Assembly (NCBI GenBank): GCA_004335835.1
Contig: RWJK01001415.1
Span: 1 to 10,510, forward strand
DNA: 10,510 nucleotides
Direction: 5' to 3'
From: Scenedesmus sp. ARA3
Taxonomy: Eukaryota; Chlorophyta; Chlorophyceae; Sphaeropleales; Scenedesmaceae
The position numbers and the translations under genes were made by a program. How positions within the stretch are numbered: the stretch's first letter is position 1; each line of letters opens with the position of its first letter. Positions 1,940 to 10,453 of this stretch are shown piece after piece. Under the pieces are notes generated by a model. It had not been told where the DNA came from. It saw only the letters and a list, made by a program, of their open reading frames with translations, and ran no database searches.

Positions 1940-2587
1940 CTGCCCACAAGCGCTCCCCCGCAGCACCCGGCAGCCCCTTTTGCCTTGGGCAGTGCACAGC
2001 GCAGCAGCTGCAGTGACACTACAAACACATAAACCATAATCCAACTGCCAGCAGCAGCTTACTAGGTGTGTGACACACCCTCCCACCAGCGCTGCCCCGC
2101 TGCATCTGGCAGCCCTTTGGCCTTTTTGCGCAGTGCACAACACTGCTGCAGCAGCCCCGAAACAACACCTGCAAACTAGCTGCCAGCAGCAGCCTACACG
2201 CCCTCCAACTATCGCTGCCCTGCAGCCATGGGCAGTGCACAGCGCTGCAGCTGCAGTGACGCCCAGCAAAACGCACACATACCTAAGCTAGCTGGAAGCC
2301 CCCTACACGCCCTCCCACCAGCGCTGCCCCGCTGCACCTGGCAGCCCCTTTGCCTTCAGCAGCATCTGGATGAACCCGTGTGCACTGTAGATGTAGCAAA
2401 ACACCCAACGAGCTCACACACGGCTGCTGCTGCTACAGCTGCTGTAGTGACGCTCTCTGACAGACAAAAAGAATAACATCCCAGCAGCTAGCAGCAGCCA
2501 TATTGCACGCCCTCCCACCACCGCTGCCCAGCTGCATCTGGCAGTCCCTTCGCCTTCAGCAGCACCGTCTGAATGAACCCGTTGCCC
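1940..2587 (-). repeat. Exon-edge echoes: end of exon 12 and stop repeated downstream
   Basis: Degenerate copies of the KAKGLPDAAGQRWWEGV-coding end lie at about 2301-2378 (in frame to a TAG), 2178-2240, 2079-2132 and 1940-1990, separated by about 200, 109, 123 and 139 bp. The intervening GCAGTGCACAGC and CAGCTGCAGTGAC blocks repeat as well. If the transcript extends this far, they make up its 3' UTR. Confidence 0.75.
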
Positions 2588-2870
2588 TGCTGGCACTTGG
2601 CCATGTTAATATCGTCCGCAACCAGCCCCGCCACGGCCGCCGAAAAGCCTGCGGAATTCAGCAAGCTGACCGTATTCGCCGGATTGTTCATGTCGCGGTC
2701 ATCAACCCAAGCATCATTATCATCTGGGCCACCGACTAAGCCGCCACGCAGTGTGTGGAAGTTAGGGTCAGTTGTGTAGTAGGCCGTCTCCCAGGTGCAG
2801 TCGGAGATGTCTGCTGGGGGGCAAGAGGCAGCCTTGTGTGGCGTCTTGCGCGGTTGCACAGCACCGTAGC
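2488..2870 (-). CDS. Exon 12 (GH9 C-terminal, stop)
   Basis: The 383-nt final exon covers YGAVQPRKTPHKAASCPPAD, an LVGGPDDNDAWVDDRD segment, NPANTVSLLNSAGF, and a tail (KAKGLPDAAGQRWWEGVQYGCC split over the repeat-prone 3' end) before TAG at 2490-2488. The acceptor is GCGTGCAG. The Glu normally found in the NE..xDYNAGF motif is absent. The last ~80 nt of the exon recur as degenerate copies downstream. Confidence 0.9.
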
Positions 2871-5707
2871 CTGCACGCATAAGCGGCGAAGGAGGCAGCG
2901 GCAGCGTCAAACACCTTGTGAGGGTGATGAAATGCACAGTTGAGGTTCATAACAGCGCGCACATGCATGTCAGCTCAACGTTTGTGATTTTGACGATGAC
3001 GCGTGCACGCCCAGCACCTCTTATGCATGGCAACGACACGTCATCCACATGTCTAACATGTTGCAATGACACAAAGTGACAAGCAAGGACTTGAGTAACA
3101 GCACACATGTCACGTGCGAACGCCCCGCACGATGCGGGCCACATTTCCTACGCATGGCAGTGACATGTCATCAACACGTATGTAACATGTTACTAACACA
3201 TAGTGACAAGGCAGGCCTGCCGTAACAGCTCACCTGTCACATAGGAGCGCCCGGCATCTCCCAGCATATAGCCAATCTGGTTGCGCGCCCAGCATGCATA
3301 CAGCATGTAGTTGCCCTTGAGCACGGTTTTGGCAGCAAGCAGCGTGTAGAACGCCGCGTTCGCGGTGTGCTGCAGCGTGCCGTCCGGCGAGGCCTTTGCT
3401 AAGCCCTTGCGCGTGTAAAACACCTCGCTGGAGCCTGCATCGCGCTGCTGCTGACTATTCATCCACTTGTTGACGAACGCGGCCACGTTGGCTTTGTACG
3501 TCGCCTCGCCGGTCACTTGCGCGAGCAGCAGGTCCAGCGCGGGAATCACGTTTTCGTAATTCCATTGGTACGGATTCGAACTCACGTGGCCCTCCGAGGC
3601 GACGGACTTGCCGTAGAACGCGATCGCCTCGGAAAGATACTTCTGCTGCCCTGTGCCGATGTAGAGCCACACTGCTGCGTAGGCCAGGTCGTCGTGCATT
3701 GACACGGAAGGGTAGAGCTTGCCGGAGTCGATGAACTTGGCGTAGAGGCTGCGCCAGCGCTGCGCGTAGGTGTACAGCAGCTGCGCCTTGGCAAGGTACT
3801 TTTGAGCCACCTGCGGGTGAAAACAACGGGTGGCGGACACGCAAAGGTGAGTGTAAGATCTTCGTGTGCGGAGCGCTGCCAGGAGCATTGCCAGGTACCT
3901 CTGACTCAGAGCTCAGCGCCATCTGCGGGTGAAAACAGAAGGCGTCGAAGATGCAGTGACACCTGGCAAATGTGACACCAGCTGGCAGTGACACCCGTTT
4001 CATGGTGACAAATGTACAGCAGCTGCGCCTTGGCCACTTCTGAGCCGCCTGCGGTGGAGGCGCAGAGTGACAGATGTGCTTGAAGATGCAGCCGTAAAGT
4101 GCAAGCTGCACAGCAGCTGCGCTTTGGCCGATGTATCTGAGCCACTTGCGGGTGAGGAATGAGGTGACACACATGCTCAAAGATGAAATCTTGAAGTGCA
4201 AGGTGTGCGTGAAAGCTTGCTGTTAGCGTTGCCAGCGGGGGCCAGCACACCCCGGGCGTGTGTGGATGTTGCTCAGCCGGGCCCAGAGAACACCCTACAA
4301 CCCGCGCTTACTTGCAGTGAGCCTCCCTGAACCGCCACAGCAGCAGCAGCCAAGCCAGCAGCTGCCATGGCCATGTCGTTAGTGCCTGGCACGTCTACAG
4401 CCGCACATCATCCACAAACCTAAAACCCGCGCTCACCTGCAGAGAGTCCCCTTGCACCGCCACAGCAGCAGCAGCCAGGCCCGCAGCCGTCATGGCCATT
4501 GCGTCAGTGCCTGGCCGGGCCTGTGACAGGAAACTTGCAGGGCGGGGGATGGTGGAACGTTCTGGTTGCCCCCAGTAGGCGCGGTCGCGGGTGATGTCGC
4601 CAACCTGCAGGGATCGAGTAAAAGTAACAATGTCATAACACACAGCAGGTAACATGAGATGCGGCAGTGCACAGGGGATGCAGCACTGCGTGTGTACGTG
4701 GGTGGGGAAGCAGAATCACTGCTGCCAATCAAAGCAAGTTGAACCATTGCGATGTTACAGCTTGATACCGCCCCTAGAGCTGAGCGCGGACGCATGCTGT
4801 CGCCCAGTCTGCTGATGGCACTCTTAACAATCATCACATCGCGCCATAGGTCAGAAGGCACATTGCAGACATGTGAATAATAATGATAATAATATCTGCG
4901 CGCCACACCTGTGCCACAAAGATGGGCTGCACCGTGCCGCTGCTGCTGGTGATGTTTGTGATGGCCACCGTGTTCAGGTAGTCAGCGCCCCAGCGTATGG
5001 TGTTTGCACCAAATTCCAGGTTGTCACTCGCAGCATAGCCCTGTTTGAACTCCCAGTAGGCCCAGCTCAGCAGTGACACCGTAAAAGCAGTGGGGTAGGT
5101 CAGCTTGAGCATGCCACCTGCAGCACAGCACAGCAACATATGTTTTCAGTGTTCACTCTTTTTAATCTGGTCGCTGACCACGTGTTCGCCCTGTTGTGGC
5201 TCATACCATTCAAGATCAGATGAGCAGTGACACTGTGAAGGCGGTGGAATAGGTCAGCTTGAGCATGCCGCCTGCAACGCAGCGTGGCGACGACAATGGT
5301 GAGTTCACATCAGCTGGCTGTGGTCAGAGTTGCAAGAGAGGAGTTGAGGAGGCAGTACACATCACTAACACTTTTAAGGTCGCTCGTACCAAGCCACAAC
5401 CACGCAGCGCAACGTAATAACATCGTACCACTTTGTGCGCATGCACAAAACACAGGTTCAGGAGCAGGCGGCTGCTGCGTGCAGCACAGCATGCTGTACA
5501 TCACTGTGGGCAGGGGTCTCCTGGTTCAGCACTAATAAAAGGGGCTATGCATTGACTGTATAAGTTCGTCCTTTCACATGGCTCACCGTCGTCGTACCAG
5601 CCTCCCAGCAGCGAGTAGTTCTTGCCGTTGGGCAGCAGCACGCTGTCCCAGACGCCGCTGTTGCCGCGCCAGGGCGTGTTGCTGATGCGAGGGAGCTTGC
5701 CGGAGCG
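2488..5707 (-). CDS. Module: glycoside hydrolase family 9 (endoglucanase-like) domain (exons 8-12)
   Basis: GH9 enzymes are (alpha/alpha)6-barrel beta-1,4-glucanases; KORRIGAN members act in plant cellulose synthesis. The module reads RSGKLP...TPWRGNSG (424-441), GGWYDDGGMLKL (458-469), PTAFTVSLLSW, IRWGADYL, QVGDITRDRAYWGQPE (533-548), MHDDLAYAAVWLY, NPYQWNY, YTRKGLA, NAAFYTLL, IGYMLGD, SYVTGYG, PHKAASCP (792-799) and LVGGPDDNDAWVDDRD (826-841). That is the normal family order at normal length (~450 residues), plus a short tail ending GCC. Two catalytic positions are unusual. The DAGD motif reads DDGG, so the base Asp is Gly at 465. The NExxxDYNAGF motif reads NPANTVSLLNSAGF, without a Glu. 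The HHR motif is also weak (PHK). A catalytically reduced, glucan-binding role is therefore plausible. Fusion to the synthase places it at the glucan exit. Confidence 0.87.
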
Positions 5708-8302
5708 CTGCATGCATAAGATGACAGGCAGGCAGACAATATGATGTCAGGCGACTCCTATGTGCGCCTTGTAACTAGTGACACCTGCTGCCAACAGTCA
5801 CAAGTGACACCTGCCGAGGAGCTTGCTGGAGCGCTGCATAAGAAATGTAACAGACAGCCAGGTGATGAGCAGGTGGAAATAGCGGGGTGAATATGCGCCA
5901 GGGCGTGTTGATGATGAGAGGAAGCTCGCTGGAGCGCTGCATAAGGAATGTAACAGACAGCCAGACGATTAGCAGGTGGAAATAGCGGGACGAGTATGCG
6001 CCAGGGCGCGTTGCTGATGCAGGGAAGCTTGACGGAGCGCTGCATAACGAATGTAACAGACAGCCAGATGATTAGCAGGTGGAAACGGCGGGACGTTGAA
6101 ATGTATGCGGCAGGGCGTGTTGCTGATGCGCGGGAGCTTGCTGGAGCGCTGCATGCATTAGCGCGTCGGACACATCAAGAAAGACAGTCAGCACGTGGAA
6201 AGCAGCGATGGCGATTTTCGCCTGATTGAGCCCACCTGCTGCAGTGATAGGCCGCATGATGCCGTAGTGCCACCCACCTGCATTTAGGGACTGTATTGAA
6301 ACATCGACATTACGTGACGTTGCACGTGCTTCAGGTCGAAATCTTTGAGCACCAGCCAGGTGGACTCCCATAACCATGACACCCGCAGCAGGGACACCCA
6401 GACCGATGCTAGTGACACCTGCTGCCGAGGTTGTCATCAGTGACACCCACCTGTGCCTTGAAGAACTGTAGTGACACATTCAGCACTTGTCCGAGGTTGT
6501 AATCATCGGGCACCAGCCAGGTGCAGGCAACGCCTCCAACTGCCATTGCGAAGCTCAGCGCAAAAGCAAAGCTGCAGAAGTCCTCAAAGAGCTCCAGTGA
6601 CTTTTGCTTGGGCTTGGGGTCGTCACCTTCTGCTGCTGTCGGGTCCACATCCATGTAGATGTAGCGCAGGAACAGCGCGGGCGGGATCTGCAAGTATGAA
6701 AGCAGGCGCTTTTGTGATATGTATGGACAATGTGACCGCTGCATGCTTATATCGGGTGTACAGGAGCGGGTCTCCGTCCATGTAGATGTAGCGCAGGAAC
6801 AGCGCGGGCGGGATATGCGGGCGACAATAAAATACGTAAAATGACAAATCTATACAGCTCCTGGATTCCAAAGACGTGATTTTGTCACAGGCAAACAACC
6901 CATCTCAAACATGCATGCCACAATTCTTCACCTTCGCTGAGGCTTACAGTCGTGTGCAATCATGCATGGGGACATAACAACAGCAACACGGCAAGTCACT
7001 TCAAGCAACGTATCATGCATTGCACCCTTGCCTGTTCCTTCCCTTTGTAAAGTGAGATTTCAAGAAGCAACACGTCACATAACAGATCTACACAAGCTGA
7101 CCTGCTCACCATGTTGTGGATGGCCCAGAAGACTGACAGCAGCAGGAACCAGCGCACCTCGCCCTGCGCTGTATACGGCTTGTCGATAATCCCAAAGATG
7201 CCAACTGCCGCTGTGATAAACGACAGCAGGAATGACACCAGCAGAACATAGTGGTCCCAGGTACCAGCCATATCTCCGAGGTACTTTGGCTTCAGCCAAG
7301 AGAAGCATCCCCCGCTGCAGATCCTGCGTTTGGGCTTGGAATCGGCGCCATTCGCTGCCGCTGCCGCGTTCTTGGCGCCCGTGACTTTGAAGCCGAGCAT
7401 CTTGCCGGTCAGGGGAGCGATGATCGCTACGTTGATGACGGCTTTCGTGAAGGTGAACCACAGCAGGTGGCAGGACACGATGCAGAACCACACCGGCTTC
7501 AGGTGCTCCCAGCGGCGCGCGTACTGCACAAGGCATGGGCAGGCGGGCAAAAACAATTCAGAATCAGCCAATATTCAACTGTAAAAACATCACAGCGGCT
7601 TCCAGTGCTCCCAGCGCGCATACTGCAAGGGCGAGGGGGATGGGCAACTGGTGACAGCGGATTTGAATTTAGGTTTGCATTTGAATTTCTGAATGCAGAA
7701 CCACACCGGCTTGAGGTGCTCCCAGCGGCGTGCGTACTGCACAAGGATGGGCAGGCGGGCAATCAAGTCAGAGACAACCAGAGGAAGTGATGTGAGTGTT
7801 GGTTTGCAATCAGTATTCTAGAGTCACACCAGCCGCAAAGGATCCTTGCGGCATGCAGACTGCAGGGGACACACCAGCAGCGACATGCAACTGACATTGC
7901 ATCTTTACCAGCCACGTGCTACTGCAAGCCGTGAATGTCATTTATAGAATCATACATGTCATTTTGGATATTCCAGCTCACCATAGTGACCATGGTTGAC
8001 GAGGTGTAGTACAGCGTAGCCGCAAGTGCAAAGTCGCGGTTCAGCACCAGCGGGTAAACCCCAAACACCAGCGCAATGAAGGGCACCAGCACGCTGCAGG
8101 GTACTGCCAGCATGTTGGTGATGTAGCTCCAGGTGACGCTGGTGTACAGCAGGCGCATGTCCAAGGTTAGGCCGGTGTCCAGGAGAGGGCACTCCTTGGA
8201 GAACAGCACCTGTGGAGAAGAGTTGGCAGCAGCAGCAGCAGCAGGGTGATTGGCGTGTACAGCAGCTGCATGTCCAGGGACATTCATGCGAGAACGCCGC
8301 CT

Positions 8303-8340
<38 letters not shown>

Positions 8341-8451
8341 GTGATCAGCATGTTGGTGATGTAGCTCCAGGAAACGCTGGTATACAGCAGGCGCATGTCC
8401 AAGGTTAGGCCGGTGTCCAAGAGGGGGCACTCCTTGGAGAAAAACACCTGG

Positions 8452-8485
<34 letters not shown>

Positions 8486-8594
8486 GCACATAATTTTGGT
8501 GATGTAGCTCCAGGTGACGCTGGTGTACAGCAGCCGCATGTCCAGCGTGAGGCCAGTGTCAAGGAGGGGACACTCCTGAGAGAAGAGCACCTGC

Positions 8595-8629
<35 letters not shown>

Positions 8630-10054
8630 CAGCAGCAGGTTGATCGATGTGTACAGCAGCCGCATGTCCAAGGTTAAGCAGGTGTCCAGTGTGGAGCACT
8701 CTTAGGAGAAAGGCACCTGCGGAGAGGACAGTGGAAGCAGCAGCAGCAGCAGCAACAGGGCCACGCTGATGTACAGCAGCCTTCATCTGGACCTCGCACT
8801 AGCGTGAGCGCTGCTATAAGACCTAAGCAACAATCCACCCAAAGAGCCTGCGAAGCATACAGCTACTGTGCATGTGTCGCCCGGCTTGGCAATCCGCAAG
8901 TATGTCAGCATGACTCCGCGCACCTGCGTCTGCCCTTTGGGCCAGCGCGAGCGCTGCTGGGATGGAAGTCCCGACCAACACACAATCCAAAGAGCAATTT
9001 GCAAGTTTGTCATAACGTCATGTATGCCCCGCACCTGCATCTGCCCCTTGCACCTTCACAAGCGCTGCTGGAAGGCCAAACCAACCAGTCAACCCATCAC
9101 TCTGCAAAGCTGTGGTTGCTTTGTCTACATGCTGCATTTGCAACTGCAAATGTGACATGCATTAACTTGTTTACCCCCACCTGCATCTGGCCCTTGCACC
9201 AGCGTGAGCGCTGCTGGAAGACCTTGCGCACCGTCTCGGGCGAGGTGCCAAACACCAGGTACTCGTTGAGGTACCTGGCAGCAGCAGCATGAAGCAGCAT
9301 GAAGCAGCATGAAGCAGCATGTCAGCCTGTGTACCAACGACTAGAATTATTTATTCCGTCTGCTTGTATGCTGTGTTAGGTGGGGAAGGCTATGCAGGTA
9401 AGCAGATGCAAAACACTAGAACTGTATAAGCCTGCAACGATCCAAATTTATTGACAATGCTAAGCCCCACCTGGCCTTGTAGCCTTTCGCCTTGAGGTTC
9501 ATGCCCAGGGTGTAGTCCTCAGTGACTGACCAGGTGGGGAACCAGCCGCACTTGAACAGCGCATCGCAGCGCAGCCCAAAGTTGGTGCCGGTGCAGGCAA
9601 TGTACTCCACCGCGTCAGTGCCTGCAGCAGCAGCAGCAGAAGCGCAGCAGCAGCAGCGGCGGCAGCAGCAGCAGCAGCAATGGCAACGGCGGCACCAGCA
9701 AGGCAACATGTGTGTGAGCAAGAGGATGTATACTCGACATGCCGGGTGCTGCATGGCGTGCATGCACGAGGCCGCAGCAGCCAATAGAGCAGCGGCTGCA
9801 GCTGCCGGCAGCAATTGCAGCCTTGAAGAGACGAAACCTGAGCAGCGTGATGCATGTCCAGCTGGCAGGACAACAACGTCATGGGCTGCAACGGCAATGC
9901 CAGCTTAAGGGTTCAGGGTTTGGATCCTCTACGTGACTTTTTGATCAGTCAGTCCACAAGGCTGCTGACCTGGCAGCATGTACTCCCAGAAGGAGAGGTT
10001 GAGGCAGTTGAAGATGTCGTAGGAGGCCTTCACGTCATCAAAGCTGCGAGGTGG

Positions 10055-10092
<38 letters not shown>

Positions 10093-10453
10093 CAGTGGTG
10101 TTGTCAGCAGCAGAGCACGCTGTGCATGTATGGGTGGTTCCAATGCAACTGCATAAAGTATGGCTGACGCAGGTTTATCTGCAACTCAGACCGCCAACAA
10201 TGCGCACAGAGAAGGACGATCGCAATGTCAACAATAGTATATACTAACATATATGTTATGAAACCACGCTCACTTCTGTGATATGCGGCACAGCGCAATC
10301 TCCTTGTCAGCCGTCACAGTTCTAAGCACAGCATGCGTAACAGGAACATCTCTGTCATGTGCAGTCACCCCAACCTACTCACTTCTGTGGTGTGAGGCAC
10401 AGCGCAATGTCCTTGTCAGCCATCACTTCCAGCACACGGCAGAAGAAGCTCTC
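2488..10453 (-). CDS. Cellulose synthase-GH9 endoglucanase fusion gene, 12 exons, 5' end outside window
   Basis: Exons on the minus strand: 10453-10383, 10043-9970, 9621-9471, 9274-9181, 8209-7982, 7523-7110, 6687-6451, 5707-5587, 5117-4909, 4604-4437, 3810-3234, 2870-2488. All introns are GT-AG, all junction phases agree, and the sum is 908 codons plus TAG. Residues 1-345 match the C-terminal half of a BcsA/CesA-type GT2 synthase, which polymerises UDP-glucose into beta-1,4-glucan at the cytosolic face and extrudes it: TPQN at 21-24, TED at 82-84, QRSRW at 120-124, FKVTGAK at 251-257, then membrane helices. Residues ~382-403 are one more helix, and 405-908 are a GH9 module that starts FFKAQ|RSGKLP across the exon 7/8 junction. 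The first catalytic Asp and the DxD of the GT domain must lie upstream of the window. I recognise both families from motifs. That they form one polypeptide is inferred from in-frame splicing and from exon 7 completing the last synthase helix. The main alternative is two adjacent genes, with a KORRIGAN-like GH9 starting at Met356. Confidence 0.85.
3018..3257 (-). repeat. 127-bp tandem duplication across exon 11 donor / intron 11
   Basis: 3018-3130 and 3145-3257 align at a constant offset of 127 bp. The upper unit contains the true exon 11 end and donor. The lower unit contains a decayed version in which the GTGAGC donor is lost. Confidence 0.75.
3234..3810 (-). CDS. Exon 11 (GH9 core)
   Basis: The longest exon, at 577 nt, encodes VAQKYLAKAQLLYTYAQRW through HDDLAYAAVWLYIGTG, NPYQWNYENVIPALDLLLAQ, YTRKGLA, HTANAAFYTLLAAK and IGYMLGDAGRSYVT, ending in split Gly. 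These are successive barrel helices and the YxxK.GL and YxLGDN-type segments of GH9. The acceptor is ACCCGCAG and the donor GTGAGC. Confidence 0.92.
3780..4156 (-). repeat. Exon-edge echoes: 5' end of exon 11 in three extra copies
   Basis: Copies of the acceptor plus first codons lie at about 3912-3936, 4015-4058 and 4110-4156. They share GCAGCTGCGC(C/T)TTGGCC, (T)GAGCC and CTGCGGGTGA blocks. The second and third have internal deletions that break the frame. Confidence 0.7.
4294..4518 (-). repeat. Exon-edge echo: 3' end of exon 10 duplicated in intron 10
   Basis: 4294-4392 repeats 4419-4518 at offset 125. The copy ends in an intact GTAAGC donor after an Ala-rich segment similar to MAMTAAGLAAAAVAVQ. 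Confidence 0.8.
4437..4604 (-). CDS. Exon 10 (GH9, VGD...W.QPE segment)
   Basis: The 168-nt exon encodes VGDITRDRAYWGQPERSTIP followed by RPASFLSQARPGTDAMAM and an Ala-rich helix. It matches the QVGDG..DH..W.RPE and PGS(E/D)xA.ETAAALAAAS region of GH9. The acceptor is CCCTGCAG and the donor GTGAGC, with phase 0 at both ends. Confidence 0.9.
4909..5117 (-). CDS. Exon 9 (GH9)
   Basis: The 209-nt exon runs from split Gly, GMLKLTYPTAFTVSLLSW to SSGTVQPIFVAQ. It completes the DDGG variant of DAGD and contains the TIRWGADYL helix. The acceptor is GCTGCAG and the donor GTGTGG, in phase 0. The junction base makes position 465 Gly instead of Asp. No other acceptor nearby restores it. Confidence 0.9.
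5053..5280 (-). repeat. Exon-edge echo: 5' end of exon 9 duplicated in intron 8
   Basis: 5221-5280 repeats 5067-5125 at offset 154, including acceptor TTGCAG and GGMLKLTYSTAFTVSLL-like coding before a stop. It carries the same Gly-Gly at the catalytic position as the true exon. Confidence 0.8.
5587..5707 (-). CDS. Exon 8 (GH9 N-terminal, DAGD-like motif start)
   Basis: The 121-nt exon encodes RSGKLPRISNTPWRGNSG to GGWYDD, ending in split Gly. The acceptor is GCATGCAG and the donor G|GTGAGC. FFKAQ|RSGKLP across the exon 7/8 junction reproduces the GH9 FF.AQRSGKLP signature, which strongly supports the splice. Four partial copies of the 5' end with acceptor sequence lie in intron 7. Confidence 0.9.
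5657..6156 (-). repeat. Exon-edge echoes: 5' end of exon 8 in four extra copies
   Basis: The GAGCGCTGC word (acceptor plus first exon codons) occurs at 5703 (true exon), 5829, 5932, 6035 and 6144, spacings 126, 103, 103 and 109. Copies encode QRSSKLPRISNTP-like variants. The intronic flank (ATGTAACAGACAGCCAG) is duplicated too, so the unit spans intron and exon. Confidence 0.85.
6262..6530 (-). repeat. Exon-edge echo: 3' end of exon 7 duplicated in intron 7
   Basis: 6262-6366 resembles 6441-6530. It shares GCACCAGCCAGG and the donor block CACCCACCTG (AG|GTGGGTG on the coding strand), at offsets of 161 and 173 because of small indels. It is a more diverged copy. Confidence 0.6.
6451..6687 (-). 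CDS. Exon 7 (fusion linker: synthase helix end, extra TM helix, GH9 start)
   Basis: This 237-nt exon joins the two enzymes. It begins IPPALFLRYIYM, finishing the helix opened in exon 6. A charged linker follows (DVDPTAAEGDDPKPKQKS), then a hydrophobic segment at 382-403 (FCSFAFALSFAMAVGGVACT and WLV), then DYNLGQVLNVSLQFFKAQ, the N-terminal helix typical of GH9. The acceptor is CTTGCAG and the donor GTGGGT, in phase 0. Met356 could be a start codon for a free KORRIGAN-like protein with a ~25-residue cytosolic tail. That is the alternative to a fusion. Confidence 0.85.
6451..10453 (-). CDS. Module: C-terminal half of GT2 cellulose synthase (exons 1-7)
   Basis: Visible order in the family: TPQN followed by a DIFN-like segment (residues 21-40), which matches the TPQ acceptor-site loop; an IACTGTNFG strand (56-64) equivalent to the FCG(S/T) segment; SVTED (80-84) holding the putative general-base Asp; QQRSRW (119-124), the Q(Q/R)xRW motif that binds the glucan end; and CPLLDTGLTLDMRLLY (137-152), matching the interface helix after QRxRW. 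Hydrophobic stretches follow at about 165-186, 217-241, 297-319 and 329-355. The gating-loop motif FxVTxK appears as FKVTGAK with one extra residue. Between loop and next helix lies an Ala-rich, basic, Cys-containing insertion (258-290). No PilZ domain follows, unlike bacterial BcsA. There is no sign of the plant-specific or class-specific regions in the part that is visible, but most of those would lie upstream. Substrate specificity (beta-1,4-glucan rather than mannan or hyaluronan) is inferred from motif spacing and from the attached GH9. Confidence 0.85.
6643..6816 (-). repeat. Exon-edge echo: 5' end of exon 7 duplicated in intron 6
   Basis: 6772-6816 repeats 6643-6690 at offset 127 with almost no change in the coding part (IPPALFLRYIYMDGDP), but the acceptor CAG has become CAT. 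Confidence 0.8.
7110..7523 (-). CDS. Exon 6 (GT2, gating loop and membrane helices)
   Basis: The exon has 414 nt and 138 codons, phase 0 at both ends, acceptor TTGTGCAG and donor ATG|GTGAGC. It opens YARRWEHLKPVWFC, passes a membrane or interface helix (LLWFTFTKAVINVAII), a gating-loop-like FKVTGAK, an Ala-rich basic insertion with RRICSGGC, a strong helix HYVLLVSFLLSFITAAVGIF, and the start of the last synthase helix (RWFLLLSVFWAIHNM). Reading past the donor gives about 40 unrelated residues and a stop. Confidence 0.87.
7490..7865 (-). repeat. Exon-edge echoes: 5' end of exon 6 in three extra copies
   Basis: The acceptor plus YARRWEHLKPVW-coding sequence recurs at about 7590-7627 (reads YARWEHWKPL then stop), 7690-7743 (nearly identical, continues only to WFCI) and 7826-7865 (diverged, still preceded by CTGCAG). 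Spacings are 99, 114 and about 123 bp. Confidence 0.8.
7982..8209 (-). CDS. Exon 5 (GT2, interface helix and membrane helices)
   Basis: The exon has 228 nt, phase 0 at both ends, acceptor CTCCACAG and donor ATG|GTGAGC. It encodes VLFSKECPLLDTGLTLDM, then a helix pair with PCSVLVPFIALVFGVYPLVL and a polar YYTSSTMVTM end. It corresponds to the interface helix and first post-GT transmembrane segment of BcsA. Several upstream copies exist in intron 4. Only this copy runs on into the membrane segment, so it is taken as the functional exon. Confidence 0.85.
8107..8780 (-). repeat. Exon-edge echoes: 5' end of exon 5 in five extra copies, with CAG tracts
   Basis: Copies occur at about 8242-8301 (internal deletion), 8341-8447, 8490-8593, 8641-8720 and 8761-8780 (fragment). 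They keep the CAG|GTG acceptor and code for variants of the CPLLDTGLTLDMRLLYTSV segment. Spacings of the GCATGTCC word are 113, 125, 143 and 126 bp, and about 120 bp to the last fragment. CAG runs separate the copies. Confidence 0.85.
8226..8756. repeat. Group of CAG tracts interleaved with exon 5 echoes
   Basis: Runs occur near 8226-8245, 8304-8339 (twelve perfect units), 8452-8487, 8595-8637 and 8736-8756. Each separates neighbouring exon 5 copies, which suggests the tract is part of the duplicated unit. Confidence 0.9.
8781..9230 (-). repeat. Exon-edge echoes: 3' end of exon 4 in three extra copies
   Basis: Copies of the QQRSRW.KGQ.Q|GT segment lie at about 9029-9079, 8916-8961 and 8781-8825, with spacings of 146, 111 and 143 bp from the true exon. 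The first has a TGA inside the motif. The second still reads QQRSRWPKGQTQ followed by GTGCGC. The third is more diverged and abuts an exon 5-like fragment. Confidence 0.8.
9181..9274 (-). CDS. Exon 4 (GT2, QRxRW motif)
   Basis: The 94-nt exon encodes YLNEYLVFGTSPETVRKVF and then QQRSRWCKGQMQ. This is the acceptor-glucan binding Q(Q/R)xRW motif at the exit of the GT active site. The acceptor is TGCCAG and the donor GTGGGG, leaving in phase 0. Three degenerate copies of its 3' end with donor lie downstream in intron 4. Confidence 0.9.
9281..9320. repeat. Decamer tandem repeat, intron 3
   Basis: Three perfect GAAGCAGCAT units preceded by GCAGCAGCAT, next to the exon 4 acceptor. It appears to derive from a CAG tract. 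Confidence 0.9.
9471..9621 (-). CDS. Exon 3 (GT2, TED catalytic motif)
   Basis: The 151-nt exon opens with split Gly, then TDAVEYIACTGTNFG, and continues to WSVTEDYTLGMNLKAKGYKA. TED at residues 82-84 supplies the putative general base of the glycosyl transfer. The acceptor CTGCAG follows CTG repeats and the donor is GTGGGG. Residue 99 is Arg, split AG|G. Reading beyond the donor leaves the family similarity at once, which fixes the 3' boundary. Confidence 0.88.
9622..9685. repeat. Imperfect CAG/CGG tract, intron 2 end
   Basis: An imperfect triplet tract with GAA, CGG and CAA interruptions directly abuts the exon 3 acceptor. Read in the wrong frame it gives poly-Ala or poly-Cys. Confidence 0.9.
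9970..10043 (-). CDS. Exon 2 (GT2)
   Basis: Seventy-four nt. The acceptor CTCGCAG lies at the 10050-10044 end. The split codon AA|C gives Asn, producing TPQNFDDVKASYDIFN across the junction, as expected after the TPQ motif. The exon ends CTGCCAG before GTCAGC, a weaker donor than its neighbours, in phase 1. The encoded part FWEYMLPG continues in frame into exon 3. Confidence 0.8.
10057..10095. repeat. CAG tract, intron 1 end
   Basis: Eleven CAG units, then TAG and CAG, lie a few bases upstream (coding strand) of the exon 2 acceptor. Confidence 0.95.
10268..10440 (-). repeat. Exon-edge echo: 3' end of exon 1 duplicated in intron 1
   Basis: Plus-strand 10268-10334 copies 10377-10440 at an offset of 109. 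It shares the CACTTCTGTG, CACAGCGCAAT and CCTTGTCAGCC blocks, and thus the exon end plus a GTGAGC donor. An in-frame stop shows decay. Confidence 0.75.
10383..10453 (-). CDS. Exon 1 seen in window (GT2, TPQ segment)
   Basis: Seventy-one nt, phase 0 in and phase 2 out. It encodes ESFFCRVLEVMADKDIALCL followed by TPQ, and ends CAGAA before GTGAGT. The acceptor CTGCAG at 10459-10454 directly adjoins a CTG tract (CAG on the plus strand) that runs to the window edge. The exon could begin further upstream inside the tract, so the 5' boundary is the least certain of the twelve. The DxD motif and the N-terminal helices must be upstream. Confidence 0.75.

Follow-up and report, generated by a model that had tools for sequence, protein, structure and literature searches.

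A green-algal gene in which a BcsA-like GT2 synthase continues into a GH9 domain lacking its catalytic base and acid

A stretch of DNA from the green alga Scenedesmus sp. ARA3 raises the question whether a cellulose-synthase-like glycosyltransferase of family 2 (GT2) and an endoglucanase of glycoside hydrolase family 9 (GH9) can be parts of one protein, and what the GH9 part of such a protein would do. The window analysed here is the whole stretch of 10,510 nucleotides, bases 1-10510 of contig RWJK01001415.1 (C1043, 37283 bases), in a genome of 87.3 Mb and 1567 contigs. The original prediction proposed a single gene running from a GT2 synthase into a full GH9 domain with an editing or guiding function. 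The analysis establishes the fusion, and reveals a GH9 half without catalytic base and acid that is likely to be non-cutting.

Twelve minus-strand exons (10453-2488; Table 1) join in phase to 2727 nt, which is 908 codons and a stop, without internal stop codons, and all 11 introns have GT-AG borders. The exon count, coordinates, length, open frame and motifs put forward earlier were all reproduced. The TPQN motif is divided between exons 1 and 2 (10393-10043). The junction between synthase and GH9, LVPDDYNL at 6516-6493, lies within exon 7; re-reading of the sequence confirmed that the final synthase helix and the beginning of GH9 are encoded together in this exon, and that FFKAQ/RSGKLP is formed across exons 7 and 8. 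Pfam matches are Glyco_hydro_9 (294.5 bits, residues 411-859), Glyco_trans_2_3 (60.6 bits) and Cellulose_synt (PF03552), the domain of plant-type (rosette) CesA, the last at 27.5 bits (cut-off 24.7) and over profile positions 408-527 of 722 only, with the 5' part of the gene outside the window. Rfam gave no matches at gathering scores.

The Tetradesmus obliquus protein OEZ85_002267 (P0001, 1178 aa) is identical to residues 1-904 of the window protein in 898 of 914 alignment columns (98%), and ten of the eleven exon joins recur in it identically and without gaps. Judged by this single protein, the alga is a very near relation of T. obliquus. The exception is the exon 5/6 join, at which P0001 has 10 additional residues, a second YARRWEHLKP. 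Residues 471-490 of P0001 hold this motif twice, and the window intron preceding exon 6 carries a copy of the start of that exon (7693-7750); the duplicate is likely an intronic copy that was spliced in by the annotation of T. obliquus. At the other end the gene extends 5' of the window. Upstream of 10453 there is a CTG run, followed by an N stretch just outside the window, and open frames on its far side correspond to P0001 in its N-terminal membrane helices and the first part of its GT2 domain. The original prediction was right about the fusion but overlooked this continuation and the absence of the GH9 base and acid.

Two further genes of the same build, both lacking base and acid, are present in the same genome on C199 and C963. 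A sequence search of about 5.8 billion proteins found fusions in Tetradesmus, Monoraphidium, Raphidocelis and Micractinium and in a protein labelled Chlamydomonas euryale. A subsequent profile search added, among the matches listed, Coccomyxa, Trebouxia, Myrmecia, Elliptochloris, Apatococcus, Symbiochloris, Haematococcus and others. Single GT2-GH9 proteins thus exist in many chlorophytes, and the lack of homologous fusions that would have counted against the original prediction did not occur. P0002 and P0003 are long fusion open reading frames (ORFs) marked 'ORF type:complete' with identifiers of a form that we take to be that of transcriptome assemblies; a single fusion transcript is therefore likely in these species. 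That two genes were misjoined, by the first reading or by the assembly, can practically be dismissed. No point in support of misjoining was found: the assembly gap at the window end lies 5' of the GT2 exons and away from the junction, the junction is contained in one exon, and the other annotation, the two paralogues and other species concur. Separate synthase and GH9 genes are ruled out by the paralogues, the homologous fusions and the T. obliquus annotation. With exons and Pfam matches in agreement as well, this is one green-algal gene with a GT2 synthase and a GH9 domain, and the fusion is neither chance nor artefact.

The synthase half has the membrane synthase fold of processive GT2 enzymes of the BcsA/CesA type. 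TED and QRSRW are in the window itself; the first Asp and DxD are seen in its orthologue, P0001. In a sequence search of solved structures BcsA was the best match to the GT2 part, followed by plant CslF6 and CesA, and by E-value this part is nearer to BcsA than to plant CesA. From these relatives the product is inferred to be a β-1,4-glucan, most likely cellulose. A mannan or glucomannan made by the synthase and handled by GH9, which would be compatible with the readings of the GH9 half considered below, seems quite unlikely. The motifs cannot tell the product, and the walls of this group are said to contain much mannose besides glucose, but the matches obtained, from a comparison set without a mannan synthase, were BcsA and then CslF6 and CesA. 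In the full-length model (predicted local distance difference test, pLDDT, 86) two membrane helices precede the GT2 core and five follow it, seven in all, and the GH9 domain is therefore predicted to be on the exit side of the membrane.

The GH9 fold itself is complete, both by its Pfam match and in the structure model. Its active site is altered: the catalytic base, equivalent to D58, is replaced by Gly and the catalytic acid, equivalent to E424, by Thr, while the Asp equivalent to D55 is kept. Catalysis by GH9 enzymes requires both base and acid, and the GH9 half of the window gene is on this basis likely to be non-cutting. An active, editing GH9 in this gene was rejected on account of the two missing residues, and the editing role suggested earlier is not supported for it. 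The positions of Y206 and D214 are identical in all rows of the GH9 site alignment; the position labelled W129, a Gly in the reference, was left out of use. The ratios of nonsynonymous to synonymous substitution (dN/dS) among the three paralogues are 0.24, 0.20 and 0.22 for the GH9 half; the GT2 core ranges from 0.09 to 0.32 and the membrane part from 0.20 to 0.40. These values, calculated by the Nei-Gojobori method with the C199 gene counted without its last exon, are rough given a dS of 0.7-1.35. They indicate that the GH9 domain is not in free decay.

The loss is not restricted to this genome. The first set contains 55 fusions (P0059, described below, is excluded); of the 131 matches of the profile search 120 were listed. 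The acid position is readable in 47 and unreadable in 8; it holds Glu in 6, Arg in 20, Trp in 5, Thr in 4 and others in fewer. The full triad of both Asp residues and Glu is found in 6 of the 44 proteins that are readable at all three sites, and the D55 equivalent is kept in 16 of 50. A third search, with 120 of 1063 matches listed, used an intact fusion as the query and is biased to intact proteins. It gave 8 more fusions, with Glu as the acid in 3 and the acid lost in 5; the other 7 of its 15 new proteins have no GT2 domain and were not counted. Both sets together thus comprise 63 fusions, with Glu kept in 9 and lacking in 46 of 55 readable at the acid position, and the named organisms among them are all green algae. 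In the Chlamydomonas and Haematococcus rows the D54/D57 columns look badly aligned, and these rows were kept out of the GH9 trees. Of the 49 first-set fusions with readable synthase motifs, 46 have them undamaged. P0079, P0080, P0081, P0087 and P0185 are intact in both halves, and so is P0088 except for a T to N change. A loss of the triad in all fusions of Chlorophyceae and Trebouxiophyceae was considered and dropped, Symbiochloris P0185 being intact. P0115, P0164 (Bryopsis) and P0165 have the opposite of the window gene, an intact GH9 triad and damaged GT2 motifs.

Among hand-picked unfused GH9 proteins the triad is complete in 19 of 23 (10 of 11 in the set used to build the profile and 9 of 12 others). 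The exceptions are one mollusc and two tunicate proteins with two GH9 domains each, and one quinoa protein. In the tunicate proteins P0181 (Clavelina) and P0183 (Ciona) both domains are without base and acid. The Scenedesmus genome has two tandem GH9 genes with intact catalytic motifs on C602 (~70000-76300), with no adjacent GT2 match in the stretch read.

We consider it probable, with some reserve, that the non-cutting GH9 domain holds or guides the chain made by the synthase. In this mechanism the BcsA-like GT2 synthase would make β-1,4-glucan, which would be exported via the membrane channel. The last membrane helix would lead to the GH9 fold outside the cell. The cleft of GH9, freed of hydrolysis, could receive the chain emerging from the channel, or the domain could tie neighbouring synthases together, and the outcome would be an ordered laying-down of chains. 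Several observations weigh against such a mechanism. Several of the sugar-binding positions of Thermobifida fusca Cel9A are altered as well, and glucan binding by GH9 itself could for that reason be lost. Nine fusions have an intact triad, including Symbiochloris P0185 with its intact synthase, and an active GH9 is thus compatible with the fusion build. Of the eight fusions of the third search, three have intact synthase motifs, two differ only in the T of TED and three are damaged. The first Asp and DxD were taken from P0001 as those exons fall outside the window. Sequons are of no help in placing GH9 outside, with 2 in GT2 and 3 in GH9 of P0001 and more in GT2 (3) than in GH9 (2) of P0081, and the membrane span 452-471 is only weakly hydrophobic. 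Finally, 28 rows of the GT2 tree near the fusions, some of them partial contigs, are GT2 proteins without GH9; because many close relatives are of this kind, the GH9 domain appears dispensable in some of them.

Other roles for the GH9 half can be envisaged. It could be a scaffold for other subunits or neighbouring synthases that aids assembly of a linear terminal complex while holding no glucan. This would account for catalytic and several sugar-binding positions being altered together, yet with a low dN/dS and a full-fold model. The invariance of Y206 and D214 counts against it, as fitting some residual ligand or structural role, and we regard the scaffold as rather unlikely. Trimming of the nascent chain by an active endoglucanase, as proposed for KORRIGAN or BcsZ, would agree with the retention of acid and both Asp residues in 9 of 55 readable fusions, but base and acid are absent from the window gene and both paralogues and the acid is missing from the large majority of fusions. 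In the accessible part of PMC13181414 glucanases tied to cellulose synthesis are said to require activity; still, trimming by this domain is very unlikely. An equally slim chance is given to new chemistry or a new substrate, with the kept D55 equivalent or a new residue as catalyst. The presence of this Asp in the window gene and the frequent Arg at the acid position, which looks like a directed change, point to it, but the Asp is kept in fewer than a third of the readable fusions, and the need of GH9 enzymes for base and acid also counts against this option.

In a 60-row GH9 tree the triad-lost rows are found in a group of 18 rows in which the named proteins are from trebouxiophytes, in a pair made up of Myrmecia and Trebouxia, in a group of 13 rows with the window gene and Monoraphidium, and in the single row P0189. 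Eight intact fusions, including both Bryopsis proteins, group with P0189, and Symbiochloris P0185 adjoins unfused Chlorella and Micractinium genes. A single clade of all triad-lost rows was rejected (approximately unbiased test, p-AU 0.0127), with the lost row P0189 placed among intact rows. A single clade of all fused GH9 domains was not rejected (p-AU 0.118 in this tree and 0.182 in the other GH9 tree). In the GT2 tree fused and GT2-only rows are intermixed, with 11 changes of which 9 are forced by starred branches. The GH9 domain therefore seems to have been lost or gained often, but partial contigs may inflate the number of changes. We infer an old fusion, followed by loss of the active site in most sampled lines, at least once more in a separate event, and by repeated loss of the domain.

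The original prediction was unsure whether such a fusion had been described. It has: the accessible part of PMC3446292 (Blanc et al. 2012) reports four cellulose synthase-like/GH9 fusion proteins in Coccomyxa subellipsoidea C-169, likened to the tunicate fusion, and states that, of algae, C-169, C. variabilis and E. huxleyi alone have such synthase domains. That part makes no mention of lost GH9 catalytic residues. The Coccomyxa proteins P0067-P0069 and P0072 (the last from C. subellipsoidea), found by the profile, likewise have GT2 followed by GH9 in one frame and fall with P0001 in one algal group of 74 rows in the GT2 tree, whereas the window GH9 is in another starred group, with Monoraphidium. 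No GT2-GH9 fusion is mentioned in the accessible parts of PMC3499364, PMC5977491, PMC10762512 and PMC7590803. No report that algal GT2-GH9 fusions have lost catalytic residues was found in the literature, which is weak evidence of absence as most subscription journals were outside the coverage.

The nearest parallel in build is the tunicate CesA, in which a synthase is joined to a glucanase-type domain with catalytic loss; its GH6 domain lost a catalytic Asp according to the accessible text of PMC7464555. However, that is an animal protein with GH6, whereas the window gene has GH9 and no GH6 among its Pfam matches, and our trees are without tunicate CesA. BcsA-like synthases of streptophyte algae cluster with tunicate CesA and are treated as possible horizontal transfers in the part of PMC9915684 available. 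Bacterial BcsA is the best solved relative of the GT2 part and shares D, DxD, TED and QxxRW, but works with a separate BcsZ (GH8) and no fused hydrolase. BcsA carries a PilZ domain, and PilZ is absent from the Pfam matches of the window. The earlier statement that bacteria keep synthase and endoglucanase apart has one possible exception, P0059, known from one contig. This bacterial-looking protein (10438-base contig, source lgn) has GT2, CelD_N and a GH9 with DAGD; among the 80 loci covered in genome_contigs, of 568 relatives, matches are to either half alone, and none is to both. Plants also have a GH9 protein tied to cellulose synthesis, and plant CesA has seven membrane helices, as predicted here, but CesA and KORRIGAN are two proteins and the window GT2 is nearer to BcsA. 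KORRIGAN is a working hydrolase (PMC13181414, accessible part).

Table 1. Exons of the GT2-GH9 gene in the window
Feature	Position	Strand	Content
Exon 1 of window	10383..10453	-	GT2 domain up to TPQ/N; P0001 aligned from P0001 residue 265
Exon 2	9970..10043	-	GT2 domain
Exon 3	9471..9621	-	GT2 domain; TED at 9523-9515
Exon 4	9181..9274	-	GT2 domain; QRSRW at 9213-9199
Exon 5	7982..8209	-	Predicted membrane helices 1-2 after GT2 core (from P0001 model)
Exon 6	7110..7523	-	Interfacial helices; gating-loop-like FKVT 7391-7380; next membrane helix; start of following one
Exon 7	6451..6687	-	End of helix begun in exon 6; last membrane helix FCSFAFALSFAMAVGGVACTWLV 6579-6511; GH9 start
Exon 8	5587..5707	-	GH9; D55 equivalent Asp, kept, 5593-5591
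Exon 9	4909..5117	-	GH9; D58 equivalent (catalytic base) Gly, 5115-5113
Exon 10	4437..4604	-	GH9
Exon 11	3234..3810	-	GH9
Exon 12	2488..2870	-	GH9 C-terminal part and stop; E424 equivalent (catalytic acid) Thr, 2673-2671

The introns of the gene have a peculiarity of their own. Ten of the 12 exons have 1-4 degenerate copies of an exon part, mostly including the border, in a neighbouring intron or the 3' flank, with acceptor-side copies upstream of exons and donor-side copies downstream. They are 22-130 bases long and 77-95% identical (examples at 8324-8450, 8493-8596, 8649-8728, 7693-7750, 6107-6161, 4299-4390 and 2306-2387); matches of 16-17 bases within CTG runs were left out. At a stricter cut-off no exon-border copies were found in the paralogues (L011, L012). 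It looks as if exon borders are being duplicated in tandem and the introns of the window gene grow in this way. Upstream of the fusion gene, at ~19200-19415 of the same contig (L009), there is an open frame with terpene-cyclase-like sequence, presumably of the cycloartenol synthase type.

If many green algae indeed keep a non-cutting cellulase fold fused to a synthase, as tunicates do with GH6, hydrolase folds would serve cellulose making in ways other than by cutting. Linear complexes have been described ultrastructurally in Chlorophyceae, and cellulose synthases were not found in the genomes then analysed, according to the accessible part of PMC3797821. The fusion would be a concrete candidate gene for the linear-complex synthase in that question. 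The combined proposal, that a dead cellulase acts as an outside chain guide by a trick like that of the tunicate GH6 and that the fusion is the long-sought synthase of linear terminal complexes in Chlorophyceae, is tentative and in our estimate rather doubtful. Both points, the non-cutting role and the linear-complex synthase, would be testable with one protein.
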